From assembly GCA_963921795.1 (NCBI GenBank), contig OY997660.1, forward strand, positions 1,502,135 to 1,566,134: a stretch of DNA of 64,000 nt, written 5' to 3'. This DNA is from Nannobrachium achirus (taxonomy: Eukaryota; Chordata; Actinopteri; Myctophiformes; Myctophidae). A program made the translations under genes and the position numbers. Below are positions 77 to 58,227 of the stretch, in pieces (the first letter of the stretch is position 1; every line of letters starts with the position of its first letter). A model generated the notes under the pieces. It saw only the letters and a list, made by a program, of their open reading frames with translations, did no database searches and had not been told where the DNA came from.

Positions 77-1064
77 ATAGATGGGTTCAGAGAGAGTTCT
101 CCCTGCTTGTGGTGAACTGCAGTGTTTTGAGGAACAGAGAATAATTAGAACAACATTCCATTCCTCTCTGCTGCTTCGTTAAACCAATTCAATTAAACTA
201 AAATAAACGAGCTGCAGACAACGTCTGGAACATTCTCTACTGGTTCACTTCTCTCCACAACAACCTGCTTTAATACTGGTTTTGTTCTTTAAAGTACAAC
301 CATTTGATTACAATGATTTTACCCCCATTGATTACCAAATGCATTTGGGTCCCCATCTGGCATCAATGGGGGTAAATTTACTATAATAAATGTTTTGTTT
401 TCGGAATGCGACAAATACTGTACAAAAAAAAAATATTATTGAACTCAAGTCTCCATGGCGTGAGTTATCAATAGAGAAAAATATATTTTGGGGGTGAACT
501 ACTCCTTTAATGACGTTTTAGTTCTGACTGGTCATAGTGCTGTGTTCTGATTTTCCTCGTTAGGGGTTCCAGGTGGCCCCCAGCTAAATGATGGAGAGTT
601 GGAGACCAAATGGACCCTTATAGATCTGTAACTCTCGAGAGTGTGAAATGAAACCCTTACAGGTCCATTTGGTTTCATTTTAAGCTTCCAGGCTCACCAG
701 ACTCTACTTTAGCTTTTGCCCATTCTTTTGTTAGGATCTTAGTTAGGTAGGTCTCAGTCCTGGCTTCACCACATTCTCCCTACAGTATATCAGTACTGTG
801 TTTGTTGGTGATTTGTTGTTGCAAAGCTAATTACCATTTGATGTGTTGTGTGAATGTAAAATAAACTTCAATGCATTTTGAGAGCTGACTCTGTCCTGTT
901 GTTATTGTGTTACAGCCAATGGTTTAGTGACCGTAACAACATGTCTCTTGGAAGCTAAATGGAAGCCACGCCGCTCCCCAAAGACAACGGTCGGGGGCGT
1001 GGCGCCTGACGGAGCACCTGATGGAAAAACGGTGGAAGGAGTAATGCAGCAACATTTGGGTTGC

Positions 1065-1091
1065 TCTTAAAAGAAAGAAAGAAAGAAAGAC

Positions 1092-1166
<75 letters not shown>

Positions 1167-1170
1167 AAAG
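1065..1170. repeat. (AAAG)n microsatellite
   Basis: About 25 AAAG units with one CAG interruption. Between it and the left end only a decayed ACCAAATGGACC hairpin copy (about 560-680) was recognised. Confidence 0.95.
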
Positions 1171-1739
1171 TCGGCCAAGTACTACAGTGTGGTTGTCCTT
1201 TCAGGCAACTTATGACATTTAGGTTAGGTTAATGGGTGACTGTGACAGTGATGAAAAACTCCCATATCTACTGGGTGAAGTACGACTATGTGCAAACACA
1301 GGAGCAAGATGTGTGAGCTGCTGTGATAGAAGAAGGATATCAAATGGAACACAACCACCTTAAAGACTACTGATCATGGTGTATACAGTACATCCCTGCA
1401 CTGTCTGCATCCAGTAATGTCCATACATGAAAACAGTTCCACTCCTTCAAATGGTACATATTTTATTTTGATTGTATTATATTGTACACTTCTGCTTTGG
1501 CAATGTAAACGTATGTTTTCTCATGCCAGTAAAGCCCTTTGAATTGAATTGAATTGAATTGACTGTGGTTAACCAACACAGCCACATTAAGGTTAGGTTG
1601 ATAGTAGTGGTAGTGGTTGGTTTGTACACTTTATAGAGGGTATGCGCATGCATAAAGTGAATGGCAAATCGAGTGGCAAATCGAGTGGCAAAGTGAGCGG
1701 CAAACTGAGTTTAACATTGTTTAACATTGTTTAGTGCAA

Positions 1740-2662
1740 TCAGATAGGACTTTTCTGTGTGGACGTATGGGCTGTCAAGGCCAGAAAGTAGTTTTCTGTG
1801 TGGACGTATGGGCTGTCAAGAGAAGACCAGAAAGTAGTTTTCTGTGTGGATGTATGAGCTGTCAAGACCATAAAGTAGTTTTCTGTGTGGATATATGGGC
1901 TGTCAAGACCAGAAAGTAGTTTTCTGTGTGGATGTATGGGCTGTCAAGGCCAGAAAGTAGTTTTTTTTTTTTTTTTTTTATATAATTTTTATCCCACAAT
2001 TTTGTAACCCATTTTTTCACCCAGTGCTAATTGCCTATGTAATCCTGGGCTCTGCTCTCCCTCTGCCGCGCCAAGGGAGACATCGGACTGACCTCATGCT
2101 TCCTTCTATGCATGAGGAGTCCAAGTTGCTTCTTTTCACCTGACAGTGGAGATTTCCCTGGTTTGGACGTAGCGTGTGGAAGGAACACGTTATTCCAACC
2201 AGTTCCTTTCCCCTCCATCAGGCACCCCGGCTGGCCAGGGGGAGGCATTATTGAGACCAGGATTACGTGCATGTTTTTGTGAGGGTATCAACCCTAGGAG
2301 ACACGGGGAGAACATGCAAACTCCACACAGAAAGGCCCTATCGCCAACCCCACCTAGGGTGTGGGCGCTGATGACGCGGAGGAGGAACACGCCGCCAGCG
2401 CCCACAGCATCCCCCGGCGGGAATCGAACCCGCAGGACCTTCTAGCTGTGAGGCGAAGCACTAACCACTGCGCCACCGTGCCTCCAGAAAGTAGTTTTCT
2501 GTGTGGATGTATGGGCTGTCAAGACCAGAAAGTAGTTTTCTGTGTGGATGTATGGGCTGTCAAGGCCAGAAAGTAGTTTTCTGTGTGGATGTATGGGCTG
2601 TCAAGACCAGAAAGTAGTTTTCTGTTTGGATGTATGGACTGTCAAGGCCAGAAAGTATTTTT
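1740..2662. repeat. about 42-bp minisatellite interrupted by a SINE
   Basis: Units read AGTTTTCTGTGTGGATGTAT plus GGGCTGTCAAGACCAGAA. About five copies lie left and four right of the SINE at 1962-2486. The sister MITE at 33.1-33.6 kb has only one unit, so the array grew after the families separated. Confidence 0.9.
1962..2486 (-). mobile_element. tRNA-derived SINE
   Basis: On the minus strand the head is tRNA-like: GGCGCAGTGGTTAGTGCTTC (A box) and GGGTTCGATTCCCGCC (B box), then CTTTCTGTGTGGAGTTTGCA, a sequence common in fish SINEs. The minus-strand 3' end is a long A run (T run at about 1961-1980). CAGAAAGTAG on both sides may be the target duplication but is also part of the host tandem repeat. 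Confidence 0.85.
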
Positions 2663-2734
2663 TTGCCACTCAGTAGGCGTTCCCGCATAACTTCCGGGTA
2701 TGCTGATGATGTCACGAGCATACCCTCTATTGGC

Positions 2735-4385
2735 GGGCCAGGTTGGGGCGGTCCCGCCCAAATAATATATAATGCGCAGCAAGCGTCCTTCACTGCTCGC
2801 AGCCAAGCTGTCTAGAGCGTCCCTTGGAAGTCAAGGGATGCTTGCTGGTGGTGTGTCCGTGTCATGTCATTCTAATTTAGTCCATTGTACTTCCTGTAAG
2901 TAGACTTAAAAATAAAACCAGTTGCCTAATCATATTACGGGAGTATCTTATTTTGAAATCCACCGTTTTGAGAGGAAGTGCTTCTGCTTGTTGTTATTGG
3001 CTAAAACTAAAGATCATATATGACATGAAAACAATGCTCCTGTGACTTAAAACAATGTAAACACTTTGAAGGTTTGTTAAACTGTTGAACCTCCACAGCA
3101 GATTAGGTAAGGAGCTGGTTAATTACTTTCTGCTGGTTTGGCTGCTGTTGTGCTGTGGTGAGAGCATAGATTGTAGAAAATATGTTGAGAGGAGTCAGCA
3201 TAGAGCTGTTGCTTCGGTATTTTCTCTTTATAGTTGTTTATTTTGTCTTGCTCCAGCGACTAGGCTACTGGATCCTCAACATCTCTCTGTGATACAGTTG
3301 TGCTATGCAGGAGCATATGGAGCATGTGTCCTAAACATGCTCAATGTATAGGCGTGTTGTCATTTAAAATAAGCATGTCGTCATGCTGTCATGTAGTTAA
3401 CGGTTCATTGCTTTTAAATGTTGGAAAGATATTTTGGCTCTGTTGCACTGCACTGTTATGTGCTCTAAATCAGTGCTGAAAGTCTCTCCTCTAATGATGC
3501 CATTCTGTTCTTGCACAGTTGGAATTGGCTGCCTTAAAGATGCAATGCTGTGGCTTAGTTCCCCCCCTAAAAGATGATTCAGGTATTATGATTATACTAG
3601 GAAGAAGATTTAAAGTTATACCATGTAACTTTTTTTATAAAACAAATCTTAAAATTGTCCTAACTGTTAAATCGCTAAAGTTTTAGAACACCCACTCCGT
3701 TATTTTCAGCTTCTAAAGCCTTCTCTTTATATGTTTTCTATGATCCTTGCCGGGGTCCGGATTTCGCGGAAAAATGACGTCATCTGCATCATCCGTATAC
3801 GTTGTGTATACGTTGGCCAATCACATTGCGGATCATACACACATGATACACTACCGGCCAATTACAGTGCATCTTGCGTCTCTTCAGGAAATAGCTTGCT
3901 TCAACAGCTTTGTTTACGCTGGTCTAGAAGTCTAGCATGTCCCCAACCGCTGCTCGTAGAGGGACACGAGAGACCTCTATGGACGCGGTGGTCTGAAGGC
4001 CCGGTCCGCGGCGAAAAACGGCCGAAAAAAGCAGACGCGACCGCGGTTTGCTATACTGCTACAGCCCACTAGTTGAGCAACTTACACAGTATATAAAGTT
4101 AAAATTAGGTTTTAATGTGGCCACACCCACCAGTTCATTAAGTATGCCTGGTTATCATGGTGGGTGGCGACCCAGCTGAAGTTAGCCACACCCACAGTGT
4201 TGGGTGAAAGGTAAAAGGTAAGGGGAGGAGTTTATGATATCATTATATCAGTGTTTTCGGCACTTTTGACCCACAAGGTGTCAGCCTCCAGGAAGAAATC
4301 CAAAATACAAAGGGAATACATGATTGCTCATAACAATCACACCAGGGGGTCTAATGAAGTGCTGTCAACACATCACTAGTTGATA
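2735..4385. other. no gene seen; presumed wif1 intron 7
   Basis: I searched both strands for EGF-type cysteine patterns and the WIF1 C-terminal motif and saw none. Short frames lack similarity to anything I know. A GC-rich patch with ATTTCGCGG and CCGCGGTTTGC occurs at 3740-4050. Confidence 0.6.
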
Positions 4386-4494: not shown

Positions 4495-17405
<12,911 letters not shown>

Positions 17406-42694: not shown

Positions 42695-43520
42695 ATGGCG
42701 GCCCATGGCGGCGGCTCTCTGTCGGACTCAGAGCTTTTCTCGGAGCTGCGGAGCCTGGGCTTCACGCCGGGCCCGGTGACCGAGCAGACCCGGCCCGTGT
42801 ACCTGAAGAAGCTCAAGAAGCTGCGGGAGGAGAGCAGCTCCGCGAGCCGGCCAGGGGAGCGAGGGGAGCGGGGAGCCGGAGCGGCGGGAGCCCCGGCCTC
42901 CCCGGGGCTCCAGGACAGAGCCAAGCCCGGCAAGACGCGCAGCTCGGCGGGCAGCGCCGTCCACGACAACACCGCGGCTTCCCGGGCCTCGGCGGCGGGA
43001 GGAGGAGGAGGCCGCGGCGCCGCCGCCTCTCCCAAGACCCGCAGCGGGGCGAGCAGCTACTGCGACGCCGAGGCTTCAGCGGGAGGCCTGGGCCTCCTGC
43101 TCCGCTCCTCCTCCTCTTCTCCCCTGAGCAAGCAGCGGGCAGTAGGAGCCGCCAAGCTGCTGGGCTTCAGCTCCGACGAGTCGGACGCCGAGGCTCTGCC
43201 CCGGAGGAAGGCCTCGCAGGCCGGCCTGAACCACAGGAGAGACCGAGGCTCCGGGGGAGGCCTCCTGCCCGGGAGTCCACCACAACAACAACAACCACAA
43301 CAACCTCCTGCTGCTGCCCGGAGGAGAGCAGGGGGGTCCGCGGGGGACCCCTCTCTGCTGCTGGCTCCAGACGGACAGAGGAGGTCCGGCTCTGGGTCAG
43401 GCTGGGGGGTCCGCCGGTACAGAGGAGCCCGGGAGGAGGAGGTGGACGAGCCGGAGGAGGATGAGGAGGACCAGCCAGCCTCCTCTTCCCCTCCACGGAG
43501 GAGCAGCCGCTCTGTGAACG
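42695..43520 (+). CDS. lemd3: lemd3 exon 1: LEM domain and GC-rich linker
   Basis: The start [20 protein letters not shown] followed by [20 protein letters not shown] is a clear LEM domain (about residues 8-48). An upstream in-frame ATG at 42671 adds eight residues; I prefer the second, which matches family N-termini and lies in a better context (AACATGG). The rest is Gly/Ser/Arg/Ala-rich with SSDESDAE, of high GC. Ends TGAACG|GTAAGG, phase 1. Confidence 0.93.
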
Positions 43521-46500
43521 GTAAGGCTGCTGGGGGTCCGCGGACCATTCACTGTACCTCCTTAAGACAGGGGTTTCTTATCAGCGTTTTTAGCTGAGAG
43601 ACAGATGAAGCAGGGACCCCTTAGCTGAGAGAGAGAGATGAAGCAGGGACCCCTTAGCTGAGAGAGATGAAGCAGGGACCCCTTAGTTGAGAGAGAGAGA
43701 TGAAACAGGGACCTCTTAGCTGAGAGAGATGAAGCAGGGACCCCTTAGCTGAGAGAGAGATGAAGCAGGGACCCCTTTGAGAGAGAGAGAGATGAAGCAG
43801 GGACCCCTTAGTTGAGAGAGAGATGGAGCAGGGACCCCTTAGCAGAGAGAGAGATGAAACAGGGACCCCTTAGTTGAGAGAGCGATGAAGCAGGGACCCC
43901 TTAGCTGAGAGAGATGAAGCAGGGACCCCTTAGTTGAGAGAGTGATGAAGCAGGGACCCCTTAGCTGAGAGAGATGAAGCAGGGACCCCTTAGTTGAACA
44001 ACCTGTTCATAGATTCCATATAGTTTCATTGTTTGACAGCACAATCATCAGTGTATTTTGGATTCATGCATAGTACTGTGTTCTATCCGTCTGTCTTTCA
44101 ATGTTATATGAGATACATAAAGTGGTTCCTGTGTAAATAAGCTGTGAAGCTTAATAGGATCTCCTTTTAGTTGACCTTGTGCCAGTGATTTGTGCTATAA
44201 TGAAACTGTACTTTTTCCTATTGCAAACTTTTATTAAATTCTTCTATCAATCAATCAATTCTTAATCATATTGTGATTCAACAATTTTGTTGCGATTCGA
44301 TATTATGCTAACCTGGTGCTTAAACCTAACCCAAACCCTTAGTCAAAGTAACTTATGACACGTAGAAATATTGAGATTTACTCGCCCCAAATTACTTGGC
44401 TTTTATATATACTAGAACATACATTTTGGGGTGAGGGGGTCGCAATAAATCGTAATATCGAATCGCAACAATCGTTGCATGGCAATATGATTAATAATAA
44501 TCTCAATATAAATCGAATCGGCACCTTATGGAGATGGTATCGTATCGGAAGGCGATTCACTGATACCTGCCTAGACTCAATGACCATACATGGTTTTTAG
44601 ATCATCTTCTATCTGTTGCTTATAACCTTTTTTTATTGATTAGGTGCTTGGTCTACCTATGTTCTTCTACTATTGTTGTGCATTTGATGTGTTGATGTTG
44701 ACCTTGCTTATTCTAAGTTTACTATAAATGTACCACCGATCAATGGGGGTACATTTACTAAAATCTAAATTATTGTCTTAGAAATGCGACAAATACAAAA
44801 AAAATATTATTGAGCTCAAGTCCTCCATGACGTGAGTAATCAACAGAAAAAGTCATGTTGGGGGTGAACTACTCCTTTAACATCCTGGCATTAAAAACAT
44901 CACCTCATATCAGGGGTAGAGCAACCATAGGTGCCAACATTGGCACAGGGGAGGGTGATCAGTGATCACTGGCACACTGAGAGATGTATGAGAGAGAGAT
45001 TTTAAAATAAAATATTGTTTTATATTGTTTTAAACATGGTCAATTACATTTAGTCACCACATTTGCAGCAAATTATATCCATACTTCTACATTCATTTAA
45101 ACTCTGAACTCTGATAGGTGGATTATTGCTGATAGGTGAGTTATTGAGTCTAATGATGATCATAACAATGTCCTGACAATCAAAATACATCTGGTGTTTT
45201 GTTGGGTTGTCATTAAAATGTATGTTGACATGACACTCTGACTATCTAGAAAATAAAATCATGGCATTTCATTTCAAAAAGGTTGCTGACCCCCACTTGG
45301 CCTTTGGTGTTGTCCATTTTTTGAGGGCACAAATGCCAAATGCCAGGGTAGGAAGGCCATCAAATAAAACAAGATTTTAGTCTATTGAAAGAATTAATTG
45401 AATTTAAGGATTAAATGTAATACGTGGAATATCTGCTGTGAAATAAATAATTGTGTATTTACAATCTGATGCTCAGCCCTGCACAAAGATCAGCATCAAA
45501 GATACTGGATTGGTTTAAACATGTGGACTCAACAAGACACTGGTGTTTACATGACAAGAAAGAGACACTGGTGTCTACATGACAAGAAAGAGACACTGGT
45601 GTCTACATGACAAGAAAGAGACACTGGTGTCTACATATTGACAAGACCGAGACAGCAGGAAGTGGTCCAGTCAGCTGGGGCATTAAGGCCACTGTGGCCT
45701 CAGGTCATGCCATTGGTTTGAGGGGCACAAGGCCAAACTGAGGGGCAACGACGGCCATGGCCTTCATGAAATTCCTGCCCTGAATGAAACTATCTTTTTA
45801 CCTTTTTAGCCATATTCTGAGAACTTTAGCCGAAAATAGCCGATCTACAAGGTCACAACGCCTCGCAGCGTGAGGCGTTGTGACCTTGTAGATCGGCCAT
45901 TTTCGGCAAAGAGGTTTGGTGTAGAGGGGGGAAAAGAGTTTATTATGTGTCGACGGTTCAAGTGGTTAAATATCTGAAAACACAAATTGACATGAATGCA
46001 TAATACACTGACGATTGTGCTGTCAAACAATGAAACTATATGGAATCTATGAACAGGTTGTGGGGGTCCCTGCTTCATCCCTCTCTCAACTAAGGGGTCC
46101 CTGAGCTGAAAACGTTGATATCAATGAAACTATCTTTGTTTTTGTCCTCTCCAGTGAACGGCAGCAGAAGCAGCCCCTCATCCTGGGACTCCAAACCGGC
46201 CGCAGATTACTCTGACTCCGAGGAGGAGGACGAGGAGGAGGAGGAGGAGAACGGGGGAACGGAGAGACACCGTCGTCTGTCTCCTCCGTCTTCCTCCAGA
46301 CGCTCTCACAGCCTCCACCACCTCCACCACCACCACCAGCCTCCATCACCTCCTCCTGCTGCTCCTCAGGGGAGTCTGGAGCAGCGGGGAGCGGAGGAGG
46401 AGCAGGAGGACAGCAGAGCAGGAGGTAGGAGTGGACCATATGTCGATGAATACGCTGGGACCATATGACAATGTCATGTCACAGTTTAGGCATTTAGCAG

Positions 46501-49500
46501 ACTCTCAGAGCGACTTACAATAAGCAAGATAATACATCCTGGGGCGTCACACCAAATTCCCTGGGCCCTGGGTACAAGTATTCACTGCGGGCCCCCCATG
46601 AATGTTAACTATGGAAAAAATATATACAAGCTGCTGCGAGCTTGTAGATCTGCTATTTTTGAAAAAAATTGAAAATGTGTGCAAGAAACCTATATATTTC
46701 CATGTCAGTGGTGCTCAAACATTTTTCATGTCAAGGACCCCCAAGATGATATGTATTTGGCCACGGACCACCATCTCAAAATATTTAGTTCCAGGGAGTG
46801 GGGACCCCCCAGAAGCAAAAAATACGTATATTCAGAGATTTGCACAAGTTTTCACAACTTTTAACCCATTTAGGCCTAGAATTATTGACTGTTTTAACCA
46901 GTGAAAAATAGCAGATATACAAGCTCACAGCGCGGCACCGAGTGCCGCGCTGCGAGCTTGTAGATCTGCTATTTTTGAAAAAGTCATGAAAATGTGTGCA
47001 AATCTTTGAATATATGTATTTTCAAAGTGAACGTTTGTAACTCAAATTTTGCTTCTGGGTGGTCCCTGGAACAAAATATTTTGAGATGCGGGTCCATGGC
47101 CAAATAAATATCATTTTGGGGGTCCTTCACATGAAAAGGTTTGAGAACCACTGACATAGTAGTCTCTCAAGAACAGACTAACTGAGCTCCAGTTAAGTGA
47201 AAAGGACCTTTTCTTTGACGATGGCTGGCCAGATTGCTGACATAGAAACATAGGTTTTTTCCAAAAATCTTAGAAGGATTCAAAAGACAGGTCAAAATTC
47301 GAATTTTCACGATTTTTCAAAAATGGCAGATCTACAAGCTCGCAGCGCGGCACTCGGTGCCGCGCTGTGAGCTTGTATATCTGCTATTCTTTCATATTTA
47401 AAGCATAAAAATATTGCGTCATATTGTGTTCAGGCCTAAATAGGACCACTGGTCTAAAGGATCTGTTACTCCTTTTTTCTTACCTTGTATGCTGTAGTCG
47501 GTTGTTGTACTGTAAAGCAGTGGTTCTCAACCTCTTCAGGCTGCGACCCCCAAGATAATCATATTTTAACTGGGACCCCCCCCCCGACGAGGACTAAGAG
47601 ATGAGGAATTAAATTTTGTTTAACACGGTTCTATTGTGAAAAAAGCAGATCTGCATGCTCGAGCATGTAGCATGTAGATCTGCTATTTTCACAATTTCTG
47701 CCTCTAATATTTGACAATTTGGCCAATGTTTAATTTGTAATTTTAGAGGTATTAAAAAACTCCTTGAAATTGTCACTTTAGAAATGTGCAGATACCCTCT
47801 ATACACTTAAACTTTATGTTGGTTTGTTTACTGTTGTGTGAGAAAACAAGGTTGCACATTAATCATCTGGGGACCCCCAATAATAATTTGGGAACCACCC
47901 TGGGGGTCCCGACCCACATGTTGAGAACCCCTGCTGTAAAGTAACTTAAACGTAAAAAATAACCATTAAAAAGAACCGTGATAAGATGGTGTATCGTGAT
48001 AGCGCTTGGAGAAATATTGTGTATTATATTGTATTGTTCCGTCTGTCCCACCCCTAGGAGGCGCTGTAGGAGGCTCGGTGCTCAGGAGGAGTCCCAACCC
48101 CAGGACCTCCATCTACGTGTCTCTGGCCTCAGGAGGAGGAGGAGGATCTTCATCCTCCTACAGCAAGAACCACGTAAGATCTTCTAGAAGCTGTTATTAT
48201 TGTCATTATGATGATGATGATGATTATTATTATTATTATGAGGTGGTTGAAGTTGAGAGACATTTAATAGATAGATAGATTTAATAGACAATGAGCTTGT
48301 TGTTAACTTTTGTAAAAAGAAGGTGCCTATCTCACCTGTCATCATCAAAGGGCAGGAGGTAGAAATAGTTCAGTCCTATACCGTAAGTATCTTGGTGTCC
48401 ACCTGGACAGGAAGCTGGACTGGAAGATGAACACAGATTCTGTGTTCAAGAAAGCTCAGTCTCGACTTTTCCACTTGAGAAAGCTCAGATCTTTTGAGAT
48501 CAGTAGGCCACTCCTTCATGTATTCTACCAAGGTATCCTTGCTAGTGTCCTCTTTTATGCTGTGCTCTGCTGGGGGGGCAGCATCACGGCCGATGATAAA
48601 AACCGAATCAATAAATTGATTAAAAAGGCTGGCTCAGTGATTGGCCTCCCTCAGGATACTTTGGATATCACTATAGCCAAGCGAACGAGGACCAAATTGA
48701 ACACTATTCTTTCCTTCGAAGGCCATCCTCTCTATAAGGTATTTAATGACCTGCGTAGCAAGTTTAGCAACAGGTATTTGATTTTGATGCCTACAATATC
48801 TACTGAGCGAATGAAGAAATCCTTTGTTCCTGCTGCTGTTAGATTCCTTAACGTTAACGTACATCGCTAGCTTGGTTTTGGGAGGGTGTCATGTAATTTG
48901 TAAAGTCTGTTATTGTTATTTGTTGTGTATTTGTATGTTTGTTATATGTTGTCTTTGATTTGGTGTATTTGTATTCGCTCTGGTGGCAAAACGTGTTTCC
49001 CTTTGGGGACTAAGCAATAAACACAATACCCAATACAATAATAAAAACAAAAAAAATAACTATTTTGTCACATTTTGACTACTACATCTTCAACTCTGTC
49101 TTTAACTATCACACATCGGGCTGGGGTAGACAGGTCTAGCCTACTACACACCTAGGCTGCTGCTGCCTACTAATGAGAGAGATTGCACTTCTTTGAATTG
49201 GCAAAGGCAGAGAAGCAGGGCTCATATGAAGTGAGGGCGACTCGCAAACTGTGATGCAAACGCTGGTTTGTCAAGGAGGCACGCGTGCTTGTTTTTATGG
49301 CGTTGATGTGAGGGAAGCTGTTGATCCCGACATAGTCAACACAAATATGGCCAAGTTTATGTGTTGGGGAATTTGTTCACATGAACACACTTTGTCCAAA
49401 ATGTTGTTAATCCCTCCTTTTCTTGATGTGCCTGCTTCAGAGCAGAAGATTCCTGCATGTCAATGATTTGTAGTTGGAAGGAACCTTCATCAATATCAAG

Positions 49501-52500
49501 TGATGCAAGGAACTCTTGTCCCTTGGTGGAAATCACAAAATGCGGCATGTTAAAGTCATCAAATTGTGCTGTAAATTTATGCCTGCATCTATCCATGAAA
49601 TCTGACATTATTTGAGTGACTTTGGCACTGGCTGATGACTTGATAAAGTGTTGGGAAAGTGCAGCATTCTATTAGTGAGATGATCAGAAGAGAAAAGAAC
49701 AAATTTCTTTTGAAACGCAGTTGGACTTTCAACAACATCAACCACAGTTTTATTTCTCCCTGCAGTCCCAGATTCAGTTCATTCAAATGATGAAAGATGT
49801 TGCTTAAAAAGCACATCTATGACACAAATCCATCATCCAGCATTTGCAACAGAATCGTGTTGGCTTTCTTGTGCTTGCTGTCACGGAGTAAAGCTACTTT
49901 TTCCTCTCTGAGGTCACATACCCTCTTAACCGATTTAGTGCCATTCCCGAGATATCTCGCGAAATTCCCTTTGATGTTCGCAGTGCCAATCCCGAGATAT
50001 CTCGCGAAAAGTAATATATTACTGTAACGGCGGTTATCCTACCGGGTACAATGGCGGAAGGTCCAGAGCCGATCTCCCTCGCTGATTTATCATCATCACG
50101 GATCCACGAGCACAAAATAGTAATCCCATAACATTGAGCAGTGATGTTACTAGGTTTTCAATGTAATGGGTCCCGGGACCCACAGGTGGTCATTCAAATG
50201 GGTCCCAGAAAAGTTTTATGAGTCCTCGATATAAAGTTTACGCGCGCAAAATGGCGTCGGACGTCGGTGGAATCAAAACATTGACGTTTCTATCGCCTGT
50301 TTAAGACTTTCTACGTGGATTTTATTTGTGTTAACATAGGGTAAAGTAGGATGCTTTCACCCATGAACAATGGTGGTGTCTGTGGAATTTCTTTTTTTTT
50401 TCTTTTACCGCGATGCGGTAAATTATTTTAACATGGACTCCAATGGAGGCGCATCCCTGGGACCCCAGGACCATGACATGAATGAGTCCCTGGGTGACTT
50501 GAATGAGTTTTTGATGCGGGATGCGCACGTAATGACATCACTGCATTGAGGCAGACAGGGAATATCATCTTTAATGTCCATTATCTCAAAACAACACTTT
50601 CAAAGCGAGGATGGAGGCAGATGCTCGCTTATATAACACATGTTGAAAAGCACCGATCCGATCCGCCATTACACCCCGTAAACAATGATCGATTCCGGTG
50701 AAGGACGTGATGACGTCAGACCGGAAGTGTTTACGCTATGGACTTCTGGCCTTCAAAATAAGACAACGCTAGTGAATGCAGCCTGAGGGAGGCATCGTGG
50801 ACATTTTAATCCGTTAATTTCTGGGGCACAGAATGGGTTAAGGGCATTGGCCTTGCTTAGCCACCGGACATCATTATGTAAGAGCAAATCACTATGATCA
50901 GCTGACATATCGGCAAAGAGTTGACGAAGCAGACGGTGTTGAAGACTGGAGGTCGCTCTGATCAAGTTAATCATAGCCATAACTGAGTCCATTGTATCTT
51001 TCAACTCACTACTGAGTCTGGTGCACAGTACACTCCGGTGGATCAAGCAGAGGGGTCCACCATTAGACGGGTCCCCCATTAGAGGGGTCCCCCAATTCAT
51101 TGTGCTGGGATGGCGAGCACAGGAACACTCAAAATAACAGGGTTTTCAGACACAATATTCTCCAGAGGCATGGCCAAAGTAGGTCGGGAGAGGTTTATTG
51201 TCGGTATCAGCCGGTAACACGCAGGAGTCTGTCCCCGTTACAATGTGCTAGACCCCTACTCATACGCTGAGTTGGCGGTGCCCGGAATCGAACCCATGAC
51301 CTTGCGGTACAAAGGCGAGAGCTCTACCGACTGAGCTACCCGGGCACGTTAGACATTAAGTTTGCAATCCACCCCTCAATTAAAACTGGGTTTGATTTTT
51401 TTTTATACTTGAGGCTCCCCTTCCTATGTAAATTCATCTCGAGATAGCTTGTGAAAATAGCAGATCTCGAGGCATTGTGAGCTTGTAGATCTGCTATTTT
51501 CACAATTTCTGCCTCTGATATTTGACAAATTTACCCAATGTTTAATTTGTCATTTTAGAGGTATTAAAAAGTCCTTGAATTGTCACTTTAGAAATGTGCA
51601 GATACCCTCTGTAACACTAAAACTCTATGTTGGTTTGTTTACTGTTGAGAGAGAAAACAATGTTACACATTAAGTTAATCATCTGGGGACCCCCCAAAAT
51701 AATGTTGTGCCCCTCCTGGGGGTCCCGACCCCCAGGTTGAGAACTGTAAACTGCTAGCCAATTAGAAGTGAGAGCCCAGACCAGGAAGGTTTGATATATT
51801 GAGCTGCTAGAGATAAGAAAGCTCACAATTCTCCATCGTACGGGCGACTCTGTTGACTGAACCGTGTGTGTGAGCGCGCTCTCTGTCTGTGGTGGATTAA
51901 CGACTTAAACCCTCGTCAAATACCAGGCTTGTATTTTGTGTTATCTTCATTTGCTGTTCATATTTCACGATGTGGCAAATCTTCCTTTTGTATTCTGATA
52001 AGGTGTAAGACATGAAATATGCAGAGTTTTAGGCTCACTTTGATCACGGTGTAACGGAAGCGGCCTGCTCACTCCTCATGCTCTGAAGGAAGCATGAGCT
52101 CAGTTCAGGGCTCTCCCCAGGTTGTCAGGTGATAAGAAGCAGCTTGCTCTCTCCTCATGCACTGCAGGAAGCATGAGCTCAGTTCAGGGCTCTCCCCAGG
52201 TTGGCAGAGGGAGAGCAGAGCCCAGGATTACAGACTTCAGTGATAACTAAAAAGCCATACCGCCCTATTCAAATGACAGGGATGCTTTCCAGGTGGAAAT
52301 GGGTTAAAGAATTGGTGCTCAGTGTGTTTAGGGGACCCCCTGGGGTCTTTGAGGGAGTTCCAGGTGGTCCCCAGCTAAATGATAGTTATATTATGTAACT
52401 CAGAGAGTGCACTAATGGACCTTTCCATTTGTGCACTCAATTAACATTGTATTTTTACAATATAGATTGGGGTCTCAGAGATAGAAATGCCGTTAAAGGC

Positions 52501-54219
52501 TGCATTCTCATAGCCACGATGCAATATTTATTTACAGAAGAGAAACCCAACGTTTCCACCTTTGCAGGTCTTCTTCAGGGGAATGACTGGGGGTCCTTGA
52601 AATTAAAATGGTTGAGAATGAGGGGGTCCCTGGCTATCTTTTAAAATGTATTTTTATTTAGAGGGGACAATGCATGTTAATGGACATCCCCACATGAAAA
52701 CAAAAGATAAAATGGGGGTCCACTCGTGGGCTGATGAGTGTAAATTTGGGGGTCCTTGACATGAAAAGGAAACACGGAGGTCAAAGCATAAAGAGTCATT
52801 GTTGTATTCATGGAACAGAAGGAAGGCAGCCGTGGGTGAAAGATCTGATTTGCACTTTTTCCTGGAATTATTTTATACACTAACTATTGAAAAATAGCAG
52901 ATATACAAGCTAATCTTGAAAACTTGTGCAAATCTTTGAATATGTATTTTTCTAAAGCAAACTTTTGTAACTCAAATCTTTACCACTGGGGGGTCCCTGG
53001 AACAACATATTTTGAGATGGGGGGCCCGCGGCCAAATACGTGTAATTTTAGGGGTCCTTGACATGAAAAGGTTTGAGCACCACTGACATAGAAACAAGGA
53101 TTTAGAAGACACTTTCTAAAATCGGGTCAAAATATTCAAAGACTTGCTCACATTTTCTCAATTAAAACAAAAATAGATCTACAAGCTCACAGCACACTGT
53201 GAGCTTGTTTCTCACCCACAGTTTGATTATGACATTTTACATTTTACATGACCATTAATTGTCACTCAAATAACTGGGTTTATGATTTAATTGTGTTTTT
53301 GTTGTTGACACTTACATTCCTGTTTGGCTTGTAGGCTTTGAAGTTGCACATGGCAGATATGACACATAACCTAAATATACAATTAAATGACTGACACATT
53401 TGACAACTTTATACTTGAAAAAGAACATTGATAGTGGAAATAGCCGATCTACAAGCTCACAAATTCATGTGATGTGAGTCACGTTCTATTCATTGTCCTC
53501 CAGGCACGTGCACACATAGACATAAAAGGGGGCTTGAGCCCCTGCCCTTTTACCCGTCTGTAAAAAGTGCCCCCTCTCTCCAGACCATGCATGCAGTTTT
53601 TACTATGGTGAAAGAAATGCAAATGTCCTCTTTCCATGCCATACCTGAAGGCAGCATTCAAGAGAATTGCCTTGTCCAAACTCTCCTGAACTTGAATGCA
53701 GCATCTTATGTTGAAAGAATTGCCCTCTCTGTGTAGAAATCCATGCTGTTACGCCACATCTCAGTATTGACTTGATTATGCTCAGTTCAGTGTGGTATCA
53801 AGTGCTGACAATAGCTGACCTCCAGCTTGGAGGTCTGCTATTTTCAATATTTCCACCAAAAGGCCCTTTTAGAAATGTCAGCCCCTGCCTCTCTAACATT
53901 CTCTGCACGTCCCTGGCCTCCTTCAGAACCACATGGACCCCTGTCGATTAAAGTTGTGTTGTATTCTATTCATCCAGAACCACATGGACCCGGAGGGAGA
54001 AGCTAACAGCAGCGGCAGCGCCCCCGGTGGCGGCAGTGGGCGCTTCAGCATCGGCCTGAGACCTCGCTTCTCCAGCTACAGGTATGAAATATTAACTCAT
54101 TCACTGCTTTACCACGAGTTCACAAGCTCACAACGCCAGCCGTTGTGAGCTTGTGGATCTGTATTTTTGGCTAAAGTTCTCAGAATATGGACACTAGGGT
54201 TCAAGTGGTTAAAAAAAAG

Positions 54220-54291
<72 letters not shown>

Positions 54292-54645
54292 AAAATAACT
54301 TTCTATCACACAAAGATTTGGAGGACCCCCTGTAGTAACTCTGAGTTACTACAGGGGGTAGTAGACCCATGTTGTAAATCTCTCTGGATTAAGAGTTTCT
54401 TCTACCTTGTGCAGCGCGCTGTCCCAGGCCTACCAGCGGACCCCGTCCTCCTCCAACCACCACCCCCCCACCTCCAACCACACCCCCCCGCCCAACCACG
54501 CCCCCGCAGCCTCGCCCTACGGCCTGCAGGGGGGGCTCAAGCACCGCAAGATGGCCGACGCTCCCGAAGACGAACTCCTGCAGCAGTTCAAGAGAGAGGA
54601 GGTCAGAGTGCACTGGGCGCACGCACACAGACACATGTACTGTAG

Positions 54646-54707
<62 letters not shown>

Positions 54708-56236
54708 ACACACACACACGGCTGTCATGATGATAAACATTTTACGCGACGATTAATTGTCACGCGTATAATTGCGGGTAACAATTTTAATTGTGTTTTT
54801 TGTCGCTGAACACTGGAGTGAATAAAAATGACATTTCTTGTTTGGCTTTGAAGTTGCACGTGGCAGATATGACATAACCTAAATATACAAATGAATGACT
54901 GGCATATTTAATCACTTTATTCTTTATGCGTTCATAGTAGAAATAGCTGGTCTACAAGCTCACAACGCATCCCATCGCGATGTGTTTTGAGAGGCTATTT
55001 CCACTACATTTTGAAAATGTTTGAAAATGTAAGAACATTTCTCAACATGGTGATTATGACAATTATGACAAAATAATTGTGATTACCTCAAATAATTGTG
55101 ATGAGACGTTTATGTAATGATTGTGACAGACCTACACTCACACATTTAAACATTACATCATGACCTTGACTAGTACAACTGTTATTGAATAGAAAGCAAT
55201 GTTTATTTGCCATTATGCTGTTTTATATTGAACATATTGGTATGGGAACTGGACTTTTGATGAGCCTTTTCTAAGCAAAATGCTGTAGTCATGGGAAGAG
55301 GGGGTACATGGCTTCAGGAATCACTATCCACGAGTTTCCAACGCCCCATAGTGCATTGCGCAGACGCTGTACCGAGCTTCCGGCGCCGCAGCCGAGTGTG
55401 ATTTACAAGCTCACAACAGGCTGCATCTGCGACGCGACGTGAGCTTGCATGTCTGCTGTTAAACAGACCAAGTGTGTGGTCCAAATAATCTCCAGTCTCC
55501 TCCAGCAAACTCCCGCGGAAAGAGGTGGATTGGGTTTGCCAATTGTAGCCCTAGAGCGGCCATATTTTGGGTCAAACACAGCCTTACACAGGTGTTCTGA
55601 TTGGAGCAGATCATTAGTTCTATGCCAATCAACCAATTGAAACACCTGTGTTTGACCCAACATATGGCCGCTCTAGGACTGCAATTCACCCTTTGTCAAG
55701 TCCCGCCCATTGTCCTGCCCCTCTCCACACCCATTGGTTGCTTTGACTTGGAGGGACATTCAGTGGGACATTCCATCCACTGCCATGTTAATTCAGTTGC
55801 TTCATATTGTTATTCTGTGTGCTCAATTCTAATTTCAAACTTTGTTTCAGTCAATTGGAGCTGCTCAGTGGCAGCATAGTGAATCAGCATGTTTTTAAAT
55901 GTTTTTATTTCTCCAAAAATTATGTTTTAGCTAATTCAACATAAAAAAGGCGGAACCAGGGCGGGACAAGGCAGATAGAGCCTGCTGGTTGGTCAGTCAG
56001 GGACCAACCAGGAGGCTAACAAAGGGTGAATTGCGTCACCGTTGGCACACACTATAAGGGTTACTGCACTCTCTGCTATATTAACATGTTATTTATCTCT
56101 ATACAGGTGTCCAGTAGGGGGCGTGTTAGTGCCCACTATCTGTCCATGTTCCTGCTGACAGCAGCCTGTCTGTTCTTCATTCTACTGGGACTGTTATACC
56201 TGAGGATGAGAGGAGGGGTCCCTGGGGGGGTCCCTG
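42695..56236 (+). CDS. lemd3: lemd3 (MAN1), inner nuclear membrane LEM-domain protein (gene span, exons 1-6; 3' end outside window)
   Basis: LEMD3/MAN1 sits in the inner nuclear membrane, binds BAF through its LEM domain, and its C-terminal domain binds receptor SMADs and limits BMP/TGF-beta signalling. Exons: 42695-43520, 46155-46424, 48058-48173, 53978-54081 (or from 53927), 54415-54601 and 56107-56236, all with GT..AG and matching phases. The product so far runs LEM domain, Ser/Gly/Glu-rich nucleoplasmic region, then the first transmembrane helix. The second helix and the SMAD-binding RRM-like domain are not in the window. As I recall, human LEMD3 has this N-terminal part on one long exon; here it is cut by introns of 2.6, 1.6, 5.8, 0.3 and 1.5 kb, most of them transposon-filled, and introns 1-3 have direct repeats across their splice sites. 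Confidence 0.95.
43580..43995 (+). repeat. about 30-bp minisatellite from a hAT end, in lemd3 intron 1
   Basis: About 14 units of AGAGATGAAGCAGGGACCCC plus TTAGCTG, the reverse complement of the wif1 intron array at 8915-9226. The adjoining ACCTGTTCATAGATTCCATA is the interior of the same family. Confidence 0.92.
44067..44262 (+). mobile_element. LINE 3' end fragment
   Basis: ATGCATAGTACTGTGTTCTA to CTATTGCAAACTTTTATTAA and a short (ATCA)n tail: the same 3' end as the LINE at 18.4-19.7 kb. Confidence 0.85.
45536..45645. repeat. 28-bp tandem repeat, four copies
   Basis: GACACTGGTGTCTACATGAC plus AAGAAAGA. The sequence from 44263 to 45535 is AT-rich intron; a decayed repeat at about 44270-44570 has AATCGAATCG motifs and the rest shows nothing recognised. 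Confidence 0.85.
45829..45907. repeat. perfect palindrome copy with compensatory stem change
   Basis: GCCGAAAATAGCCGATCTAC plus AAGGTCACAACGCCTCGC and its mirror. Most copies have AAGCTCAC; here GGTCA pairs with TGACC. Confidence 0.9.
46155..46424 (+). CDS. lemd3: lemd3 exon 2: acidic, Ser- and His-rich segment
   Basis: Reads [20 protein letters not shown], then a Glu/Asp run, then [20 protein letters not shown] and so on. No folded domain. Acceptor TCTCCAG|TG; donor GGAG|GTAGGA; phase 1 both sides; 270 bp. Confidence 0.85.
46862..47445. mobile_element. MITE-like element with paired palindromes (copy 2, inverted)
   Basis: Starts TAACCCATTTAGGCCTAG and ends CAGGCCTAAATA. It is the reverse complement of 7319-7917, with palindromes at 46903-46975 and 47320-47392. 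A further partial copy precedes it at 46610-46860. Confidence 0.8.
47518..47933. mobile_element. hAT non-autonomous element, TSD CTGTAAAG
   Basis: Ends CAGTGGTTCTCAACCTCTTC and ACATGTTGAGAACCCCTG. TSD CTGTAAAG at 47510-47517 and 47934-47941. Contains a palindrome variant at 47636-47692. Confidence 0.95.
48058..48173 (+). CDS. lemd3: lemd3 exon 3
   Basis: Reads [20 protein letters not shown] then [18 protein letters not shown]. Low-complexity nucleoplasmic linker. Acceptor CCCCTAG|GA, donor CCAC|GTAAGA, phase 0 out. Confidence 0.85.
48303..49040 (+). pseudogene. LINE fragment: reverse transcriptase C-terminal region
   Basis: IVQSYT then, after a two-base frame slip, [20 protein letters not shown] and [17 protein letters not shown], typical of the end of CR1/L2-like reverse transcriptases. 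It runs to a stop at 48870 and has an A-rich 3' end near 49020-49060. 5'-truncated, and a different lineage from the LINE at 18.4 kb. Confidence 0.85.
49230..51100 (-). pseudogene. decayed hAT transposase (ZBED/GTF2IRD2-like)
   Basis: Minus-strand pieces in order: [20 protein letters not shown] and [16 protein letters not shown] (catalytic-core HTDVRWLS region), then [33 protein letters not shown] and a later [20 protein letters not shown]. Frameshifts and a stop break it, and a TTAA-target element splits it after NAL. It cannot be active. Confidence 0.85.
49930..50837. mobile_element. TTAA-target (piggyBac-like) element inside the hAT transposase
   Basis: TTAA copies at 49926-49929 and 50838-50841. 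Ends CCGATTTAGTGCCATTCC and GGGGCACAGAATGGG are imperfect inverted repeats. Removing it rejoins the transposase codons (NAL-KRVCDL). Interior contains CCCGAGATATCTCGCGAAA twice. Confidence 0.88.
51180..51355 (-). mobile_element. tRNA-derived SINE head
   Basis: The minus strand reads GTGCCCGGGTAGCTCAGTCG, GTAGAGC and GGGTTCGATTCCGGGCACC. It has good A and B boxes, but the T and anticodon stems do not close properly, so a SINE is likelier than a working tRNA gene. Confidence 0.65.
51420..51745. mobile_element. hAT-like element fragment with palindrome
   Basis: TTTCTGCCTCTGATATTTGA through AATCATCTGGGGACCCCCC and CCCAGGTTGAGAAC is the interior and right end of the 47518-47933 family. Palindrome at 51451-51504. 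Parallel fragments lie at 17990-18165 (inverted) and 61975-62190. Confidence 0.7.
51746..53789. other. lemd3 intron 3, mixed repeat remnants
   Basis: Two copies of a roughly 75-bp unit with GCATGAGCTCAGTTCAGGGC (52070-52205), then worn pieces of the ATTTTGAGATGG / GGGTCCTTGACATGAAAAGG family and half palindromes at 52890, 53167 and 53437. No exon seen. Confidence 0.6.
53790..53926 (+). mobile_element. transposon end supplying the 3' end of lemd3 intron 3
   Basis: GGCCCTTTTAGAAATGTCAG then CCCCTGCCTCTCTAACATTC and TCTGCACG is the reverse complement of 12735-12800, ending about 20 bases before the first exon 4 acceptor. A compact palindrome with GACCTCCAGC/GCTTGGAGGTC stems is at 53807-53845. 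Confidence 0.75.
53978..54081 (+). CDS. lemd3: lemd3 exon 4 (alternative acceptor at 53927)
   Basis: Reads [20 protein letters not shown] then [14 protein letters not shown]. Acceptor CATCCAG|AAC; donor TACAG|GTATGA, phase 2 out. CAGAACCACATGGACCC is duplicated 51 bp upstream with its own AG (TCCTTCAG|AAC); using that acceptor adds 17 codons in frame with no stop. Confidence 0.8.
54082..54414 (+). repeat. lemd3 intron 4: almost all transposon fragments
   Basis: Contains a palindrome copy (54118-54172), a (TA)n tract (54223-54290) and a hAT end with CCCCCTGTAGTAACTC and mirror. No direct repeat at its splice sites. Confidence 0.8.
54415..54601 (+). CDS. lemd3: lemd3 exon 5
   Basis: Reads [20 protein letters not shown] and, after a His/Pro stretch and [16 protein letters not shown], ends [14 protein letters not shown]. 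The charged end just before the membrane helix fits MAN1. Acceptor TTGTGCAG|C, donor GAG|GTCAGA, phase 0 out. Confidence 0.88.
54646..54720. repeat. (CA)n microsatellite 45 bp past the exon 5 donor
   Basis: Pure CA run with one interruption. After it, 54938-55005 is a worn palindrome copy and the rest to 55395 shows no gene. Confidence 0.95.
55395..56030. mobile_element. foldback element in lemd3 intron 5
   Basis: Arms TAGAGCGGCCATATTTTGGG TCAAACACA (55553-55580 region) and mirror at about 55645-55675. GGGTGAATTGC-type words flank it at about 55680 and 56020. A worn palindrome lies at 55400-55458. Confidence 0.6.
56107..56236 (+). CDS. lemd3: lemd3 exon 6: first transmembrane helix
   Basis: [20 protein letters not shown] then [16 protein letters not shown]: a clear membrane helix, matching human [20 protein letters not shown]. 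Acceptor ATACAG|GTG phase 0; donor CCTG|GTGAGT phase 1. The last part and donor are duplicated downstream. Confidence 0.92.
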
Positions 56237-56239
56237 GTG

Positions 56240-56296
<57 letters not shown>

Positions 56297-56375
56297 CCTG
56301 TGTGTTCTTCATTCTGCTGGGTCTGTTATACCTGAGGATGAGAGGAGGGGTCCCTGGGGGTCCCTGGTGAGTACA
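56237..56375 (+). repeat. duplicate of the lemd3 exon 6 3' edge and donor after a (CA)n tract
   Basis: After (CA)n at 56243-56295, GCCTGTGTGTTCTTCATTCT and CTGTTATACCTGAGGATGAG with GGTCCCTG|GTGAGTACAC copy the exon. It differs in a few bases and lacks two G in a G run (5 versus 7), so the frame differs. The CACACAG before it could act as an acceptor. Confidence 0.9.
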
Positions 56376-56508: not shown

Positions 56509-58227
56509 TAGGGCAGTCACGATTAATACATAATCGTCTAATCGCGATTATTTTTCATATTCGCGAATATTTTTCATATTCGCGATTATCGTCAATTATC
56601 TAATGTAATTAAAAGGTAGTGAGTTTTGACAATAAAACCATTCTTAACACCTTCTAAGCCAAGGGGAGCCCCTTAATGTTAAAACCGTACTATATCGCAC
56701 ATCCCCCCAGGGACTCTCAGCCACGTCGTACATTCCCGGACTTTGTCTTTAAAACCGGAATAAAAGCTTTTGATCCGAAAATCGGCGATCGTCTAACCTT
56801 CCCTAGTCACCACTCGTGCACTGATAGCTCATGCAGACCGTGCATGAAGCAGAGGTGACGTCAGCGCCTCTCCTTCTCCAAGGCTACTCCCAGCCATCCA
56901 TTTGCTGTCTGCACACTCGAGCTCCTACAGCAGCCATGCTTGGGGCTATGCTAGCGAAACTTTTCAGTTCTGTTCTTCAGTCACACATGGACTATTTGCG
57001 GGGACATTTACGTGAAAGGATCGCGCACGCGAAACGCACGGGGACATCGACGATCGGCCAAAACCCCCATTCTATCCCAACGGAAATCGAGAAAATCATG
57101 GTGAGTTACTGGCCTGGGGGAAAAAAAAAAAGAAAAAACAGCGGCGCTGTTCAAGATGGAGGGGCTGCGGGGTCATGTTTATAAACATAATATTATGTCT
57201 CAGATCACAATACAATAATAGAAATGTCACGGCTAATCTACCAACCACCATTCTATTTCGGACGTCAAGGTGTTAAACAAGTTAAACTTCACGTCAACAC
57301 TTGCATTCTTGAATGCGCCTCCCCCTTGTTGCCACAGGGACCCGTGAACGCTCAATGCTGGTCCTCCTCAGTCAGTCAACACAACGCACTGCCGTCACAC
57401 AGCACAGGCAGGCTGGCTGGCTAACTAAAAATGCTTAATGTTTGTTTCAACCGATTCGATCAATTACTTTTTCCAGACTGTCGGAACAGACACATGTACC
57501 ATACACATCCCGGGACTATATTCCTTTTGATACGATACAGAAAAAGGCGTTCACTTCACTTTCGTTTCAACACAGAGGACTGGAGTCAATGCCTTTACTG
57601 CAGCTTAGCTTAGCACTGCTGCTCTGCTATGGAGGGGATGATGATGAATGATGATGATGATGATTGATTACACACCGACGGCGACGAGCTATAGATGTTG
57701 GATCGTGTCATGATAAACATTATAGGCTACTGTCGCCATTTTCAGCGTCGGCTATTTTTGCAGTTGTCTGCTATTTTCACAACGCACCGCGACGTGTTGT
57801 GAGCTTGTAGATCGGCTATTTTCACAACGCACCGCGATGCGTTGTGAGCTTGTAGATCGGCTATTTTCACAACGCACCGCGACACGCTGTGAGCTTGTAG
57901 ATCGGCTATTTTCACAACGCACCGCAACGCGTTGTGAGCTTGTAGATCGGCTATTTTCAAATAGCTACGGTATAAAATAGGGCTAAAGTTAGCAAGTAAA
58001 TTAGCAAGTAAATGTACTTAATAGTTACTTTACAGTTTACACCACTGAACTGATGTTTAAAAAGCAATTAAATTGCTCTTCATTAAGGTACAGTACGAGT
58101 ATGAGCTCAAAGCCTATTATCATAGTGGCATAAAATGAAGGGGGAAAAAAGACGATATATTTGTCAATCGCCGATTATTTGTATGACAATTAATCGTCTG
58201 GAGAAAGTCCTAATCGTGACAGCCCTA
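56509..58227. mobile_element. hAT element, TSD ACTACCAG
   Basis: Ends TAGGGCAGTCACGATTA and TAATCGTGACAGCCCTA. TSD ACTACCAG at 56501-56508 and 58228-58235. 1.7 kb, interior not recognised as coding, contains the tandem palindromes at 57764-57960. Confidence 0.95.
57764..57960. repeat. tandem array of half-palindromes, 45-bp unit
   Basis: Four units of GCTATTTTCACAACGCACCG plus CGATGCGTTGTGAGCTTGTA and GATCG, with small changes in the ACCGCGATGCG centre. Confidence 0.95.

Follow-up and report, generated by a model that had tools for sequence, protein, structure and literature searches.

Intron 1 of lemd3, a gene lying in the window (the whole 64,000-nt stretch of DNA analysed here), was probably gained in the ancestry of this fish through an at least partly hAT-derived insertion at an 8-bp staggered cut and was later enlarged by a nested element, a reading to which we assign a probability of roughly 60%. 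The gene is lemd3/MAN1, as indicated by a LEM domain in exon 1 (Pfam, E 2.4e-16); the human LEMD3 sequence used as tblastn query (below, the human query) is an unverified one. Coordinates refer to the forward strand unless stated otherwise. Exon 1 (42695..43520) extends from the LEM domain to SRSVN plus one nucleotide, ends in phase 1, and is delimited by Pfam and by tblastn to residues 5-246 of the human query; intron 1 (43521..46154) is a GT..AG intron of 2634 nt in phase 1; and exon 2 (46155..46424) matches residues 238-299 of the human query by tblastn. Intron 2 (46425..48057) very probably lies inside the region that is exon 1 in human, the exon 3 that follows it was modelled from frame and splice signals without a tblastn match, and intron 3 (48174..54427), whose acceptor was chosen by frame, possibly lies inside human exon 1 as well. 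Later lemd3 exons resemble the human query; its two best matches towards the C-terminus (74-80% identity) fall within the 10 kb that follow the window. The only PDB match was the LEM-domain chain of LAP2, and no second lemd3 copy was found in the genome, where the search returned a weak LEM-domain match on C1 (E 0.013).

Both edges of intron 1 carry the exact 8-bp sequence GTGAACGG, as an earlier note on this DNA had reported. The intron begins with the last G of the left copy (43514..43521), and the first G of the right copy (46154..46161) completes the acceptor AG. When all GT dinucleotides in 43490-43560 were paired with all AG dinucleotides in 46100-46200, four pairs were stop-free and in frame, and 43521/46154 is the only strong one of the four, since its donor (ACG|GTAAGG) fits the consensus and its acceptor follows a pyrimidine tract (TTTGTTTTTGTCCTCTCCAG). 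Splicing at this pair is predicted to leave 6 extra nucleotides (VN) and to keep the frame, giving the product SRS-VN-VNG-SR, in agreement with the earlier note. The same note had described split splice sites, in which donor and acceptor are each half repeat and half insert, and this arrangement is supported by the register of the repeat together with the in-frame GT-AG pair. Intron 1 thereby shows splice sites placed at the border of a target duplication, which is a trait of introners, and an 8-bp target duplication (GTGAACGG twice), which is a trait of introns made by hAT elements. No such junction repeat is present at intron 3.

At the corresponding site, human LEMD3 presumably reads SRT-VNG-SR. 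In the tblastn comparison, fish exon 1 matches the human query through SRTVNG and fish exon 2 matches it from VNGSR, the two exons overlapping on the human sequence at VN. We read this alignment as SRS-(VN)-VNGSR in the fish against SRT-VNGSR in human, with VN as the probable fish surplus; the MAFFT gap at the junction is 3 residues, as against the 2-residue VN gap of the preferred reading. A literature search for human peptides around the site found none, and TVNGSR comes from the unverified query, which agrees with print at the flanking primer peptides. Human LEMD3 exon 1 is covered by four amplicons in Table 1 of PMC2912259. Six of the eight exon-1 primers in that table encode peptides of the human query, at positions 97, 139, 229, 263, 344 and 398, and the outermost two, e1-1F and e1-4R, have no match to it, which would fit a location beyond the coding region. 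Since the site (aa 243-246) falls within both amplicon e1-2 (aa 97-268) and amplicon e1-3 (aa 229-402), the printed primers of that table place it within human exon 1, and the human stretch appears unbroken at the position of intron 1. The claim that an insertion entered coding sequence and duplicated an 8-bp target there is supported both by the position of the site inside human exon 1 and by the presence of VN in both fish exons against a single human VNG. No description of lemd3 gene structure in other fish was found among the papers listed (10 of 17, judged by titles and the starts of abstracts).

The frequency with which such a repeat arises by chance was estimated from sets of 300,000 simulated introns. 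A straddling repeat of at least 8 bp occurred in 338 of them (0.11%) with random exons and in 1,319 (0.44%) with the GC-rich coding sequence of lemd3, a composition control that includes the lemd3 locus itself. Counting repeats that merely touch the junctions gave 518 to 3,260 cases (0.17-1.1%), and taking exon halves that are adjacent in coding sequence gave 2,737 (0.9%). The genome has approximately 200,000 introns. A straddling repeat is thus unusual for any one intron but is expected hundreds of times across the genome, so that the repeat alone proves nothing; what lends it weight is the location of the site within human exon 1, together with a surplus that is the duplicated VN. These same two features weigh against the view that this is an ordinary intron holding hAT scraps whose flanks happen to share 8 bp, given that the surplus VN sits precisely at the junction of an otherwise matching SR-[ST]-VNG-SR motif. 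Coincidence draws some credit from the simulated rate of 0.1-1.1% per intron, from the low complexity of the exons and the 6-bp straddling repeat at lemd3 intron 2, and from the abundance of hAT scraps in the genome, and we regard it as quite improbable. The repeat at intron 2 is AGGAGG, which lies across both splice sites (46420-46425 and 48056-48061), is of low complexity and is perhaps itself due to chance.

The position of the site inside human exon 1 could also be explained if the intron were old and had been lost in tetrapods, where either a deletion between the GTGAACGG copies or an exact loss followed by GTGAACGTGAACGG slippage would leave VNG. Fish intron 2 very probably, and intron 3 perhaps, also fall within human exon 1, which could reflect several gains in fish or one multi-intron loss in tetrapods, and a single loss of this kind would explain all of them; microhomology-mediated intron loss is, moreover, a published idea, cited in PMC12357937. 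Such a loss, however, requires an ancient intron that already carried a straddling 8-bp repeat (0.1-0.4% in the strict simulation), and intron turnover is reported in the available text of PMC12357937 to be higher in teleosts. For the first of these reasons gain of intron 1 is more likely than loss, and an old intron is unlikely. A wider version of the gain, in which two or three new introns broke lemd3 exon 1 in the fish lineage, at least one of them via a hAT-derived insertion whose 8-bp duplication made both splice sites, would amount to a vertebrate introner-like gain and is put forward only tentatively, as doubtful.

Most of intron 1 is filled by a nested hAT-like copy that spans 43568..46118 between its ends (no strand assigned), with a probable left end CAGGGGT.. 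and a right tip that was lost near 46118. Sequence from the right-hand portion of the intron, as far as 46118, recurs at 39 other scored places with 95-97% identity, all ending at 46118-46119 (1172 candidates, 40 scored including the intron itself), and on the left side the non-self matches that were listed, part of a total of 411, all start at 43588 or later. The left target site of the nested copy, CCTTAAGA (43560..43567), fits nnnTAnnn. In twenty 8-kb stretches around other copies, exact CAGGGGTCT precedes 13 of 31 family ends and most of the remaining ends carry near variants of it, while L039 and L047 each show one end with unrelated sequence. Among family ends with no more than 4 substitutions, TA stands in the middle of the 8-base flank in 23 of 29; once identical flanks are merged, TA occupies positions 4-5 in 19 of the 25 distinct flanks and is found in 0-8 of the 25 at 18 other offsets. 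The flanks at the two ends of a single family copy agree at best at 6 of 8 bases (L035 and L038), and in the window the right copy is lost. The nested element shows hAT-type ends, multiple copies and a target signature. A TA-centred 8-bp flank is what we take to be the target of Buster-type hAT elements, and the nested copy shares with hAT elements that have Buster-like targets both CAGGGGTC..-type ends and TA-centred 8-bp flanks, differing in the loss of its right tip and right target copy. The difference between Ac and Buster targets is mentioned in the available text of PMC3942097, in which the motifs are not given.

The earlier note had taken the body of the intron for the worn remains of its maker, and on this point the results disagree with it. 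The nested copy has its own ends at 43568 and ~46118, set back from the donor by 47 nt and from the acceptor by ~36 nt, and its family uses TA-centred targets, which GTGAACGG does not fit; it was rejected as the maker of the intron and seems to be a later passenger. The transposon that occupies an intron can thus differ from the one to which the intron owes its origin. Classification of the nested copy as a Tc1/mariner-type element, based on the TA beside 43581 and 46118, was dropped on finding that other copies have the further CAGGGGTCT end. The left arm of the nested copy contains a minisatellite with a unit of ~31 bp (GAGAGAGATGAAGCAGGGACCCCTTAGCT) at 43590-44005, and arrays of the same unit occur elsewhere in the genome. 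An exact 15-nt repeat, AATGAAACTATCTTT, is present at 45783-45797 inside the nested copy and at 46123-46137 just beyond its right end, and may be tied to the loss of the right tip.

Outside the nested copy, intron 1 retains 47 nt at its left side and no more than 36 nt at its right. The left remnant holds GGCTGCTGGGGGTCCGCGGACC (43525..43546), a worn hAT-like end piece that corresponds to the inner part of a multicopy end with the typical form CTGGGGGTCCCCGGACCCCACTTTGAGAACCACTG; CACTG follows nearby at 43550-43554, with a flank that is not TA-centred. The piece is identical at 21 of 22 bases to a hAT-like end on C4, and that place is the only near match to the 25-base start of the intron (3 mismatches). 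The view that the left remnant is single-copy was withdrawn, its near match on C4 being a hAT-like end of a large family. Ends of the form CTGGGGGTCC(C/G)CGGACC..CACTG with a TA-centred flank occur at 247 places, against 0 for the control. When up to 2 mismatches were allowed, a 21-base core taken from the intron start had 329 occurrences, its own among them, and the reversed pattern had 4. In 277 kb, the pattern of the left piece with up to 5 mismatches was found at 6 places including itself (control, 1). The alignment score of the left remnant against 21 such hAT-like ends was reached by 0 of 300 shuffles, but 89 of 946 window stretches of matched GC content, simple repeats among them, scored equally well, which indicates that hAT scraps are common here. 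The right remnant (46119..46154) carries the pyrimidine tract and AG, and a search for its relatives found none. A genome search with the 94-nt empty (joined) intron returned only itself; this search also missed the hAT-like ends later found by pattern. The two ends of the insert do not form inverted repeats (3 of 8 bases agree, and 1082 of 2000 shuffles attain the local score), and thus the terminal inverted repeats that characterize some introner families are lacking. Nor do hAT tips adjoin the duplication on both sides, the left side being an inner piece and the right side matching nothing.

The hAT insertion proposed by the earlier note consequently holds in part: the left remnant does contain a worn hAT-like end piece, but this comes from the interior of such an end, short of the tip, and it does not belong to the family of the hAT-type element at 15460..15942. 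That element is flanked by the 8-bp duplication ATATTAAC and has the ends TAAGGCTGG/CCAGCCTTA; 40 places, itself included, were scored out of 1746 candidates. The left end of the intron does match its first 8 bases, as had been pointed out, but the match stops there, its TAAGG is sequence that any donor would supply, and the family is a different one.

The repeat, the reading frame and the two hAT-like pieces are present at the locus, and from there we infer the direction of the gain, the splicing, the order of events and the maker. In the favoured account, an insertion would have entered the V-N-G codons of a long first exon, the 8-bp staggered cut duplicating GTGAACGG. The duplicated target would have supplied one base, and the insert the other, of both the donor G|T and the acceptor A|G, and splicing would leave 6 extra nucleotides (VN) with the frame intact. 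The insert was probably at least partly hAT-derived, given a worn end piece that extends almost to the donor. Since the left edge corresponds to internal sequence of a hAT-like end and lacks the tip, the insert may have been a hAT copy that later lost its tip or a hAT-derived scrap captured in break repair. A longer hAT-like element with TA-centred targets would later have landed inside, increasing the intron from ~80-94 nt to 2.6 kb.

The second of these two origins, in which a staggered double-strand break was filled during repair with a hAT-derived scrap and without transposition, is a narrower version of the favoured account, and its share is included in the probability given above. Short direct repeats flank 43% of gained introns in Daphnia and are interpreted as filled-in staggered breaks in the available text of PMC3443670, and lemd3 intron 1 resembles these in the short direct repeats at its edges and in an insert without inverted repeats. 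The inner position of the hAT-like piece at the left edge is likewise consistent with repair. Unlike the Daphnia introns, however, the left part of the lemd3 insert is hAT-derived and 8 bp is also the standard length of a hAT duplication, as described in PMC3942097; furthermore, a hAT copy with a lost tip would look identical, and no relative of the right remnant was found. Repair without transposition is on balance a possible but rather unlikely origin. Tandem duplication of an exon segment (AGGT-type), which PMC3443670 presents as a generally well-supported route of intron gain, is highly improbable here: the intron ends share only 8 of 46 and 7 of 35 in-register bases with the exon beyond the repeat, 1666 and 145 of 2000 shuffles attain the corresponding local scores, and AGGT is absent at the site.

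The favoured history, an insertion followed by enlargement, has a close parallel in intron 3 of notothenioid slc26a2, which according to the available text of PMC12357937 was made by the element NTE-1 with 4-nt direct repeats and enlarged by a second element. Both cases concern a coding exon of a fish gene, an insertion with short direct repeats and a second element nested later, and the location of GT-AG in the direct and inverted repeats of the slc26a2 intron is counted here as a further likeness. NTE-1, however, is recognised at both ends (inverted repeats tgt..aca, 4-nt repeats), whereas lemd3 retains only a worn left inner piece and an 8-bp repeat. As the slc26a2 intron has the same kind of history, the lemd3 intron is probably a further example of a type already described. 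A survey of introners in 3,325 genomes (PMC9860276) found vertebrates to give no evidence of a pattern of gain. As in introners, the target duplication at lemd3 supplies part of the splice sites, and one Aureococcus introner family in PMC9860276 likewise adds nucleotides to the mRNA; introners, however, are families of similar introns, whereas the search with the 94-nt empty intron brought up no similar intron here. In vertebrates, few intron gains have a mechanism that can still be read. Should fish relatives lack the intron and carry a single VNG, the locus would show how a single insertion created donor and acceptor together in frame, and how such a young short intron was later enlarged by a second transposon.

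Two further repeats were observed in the window. In lemd3 exon 5, which encodes the transmembrane segment, 67 nt at 56162-56228 recur at 56294-56360, 132 bp downstream, with 96% identity, and GTGAGT stands after the repeat copy; this partial exon duplication could serve as an alternative exon. The sequence GAGCTTGTAGATCNGCTATTTT occurs with up to 2 mismatches at 38 places in the window, where none is expected, including 57801-57957 (four in a row), 46638, 46954 and 34400, and its copies often lie close together in opposite orientation, forming an abundant hairpin-like repeat family.
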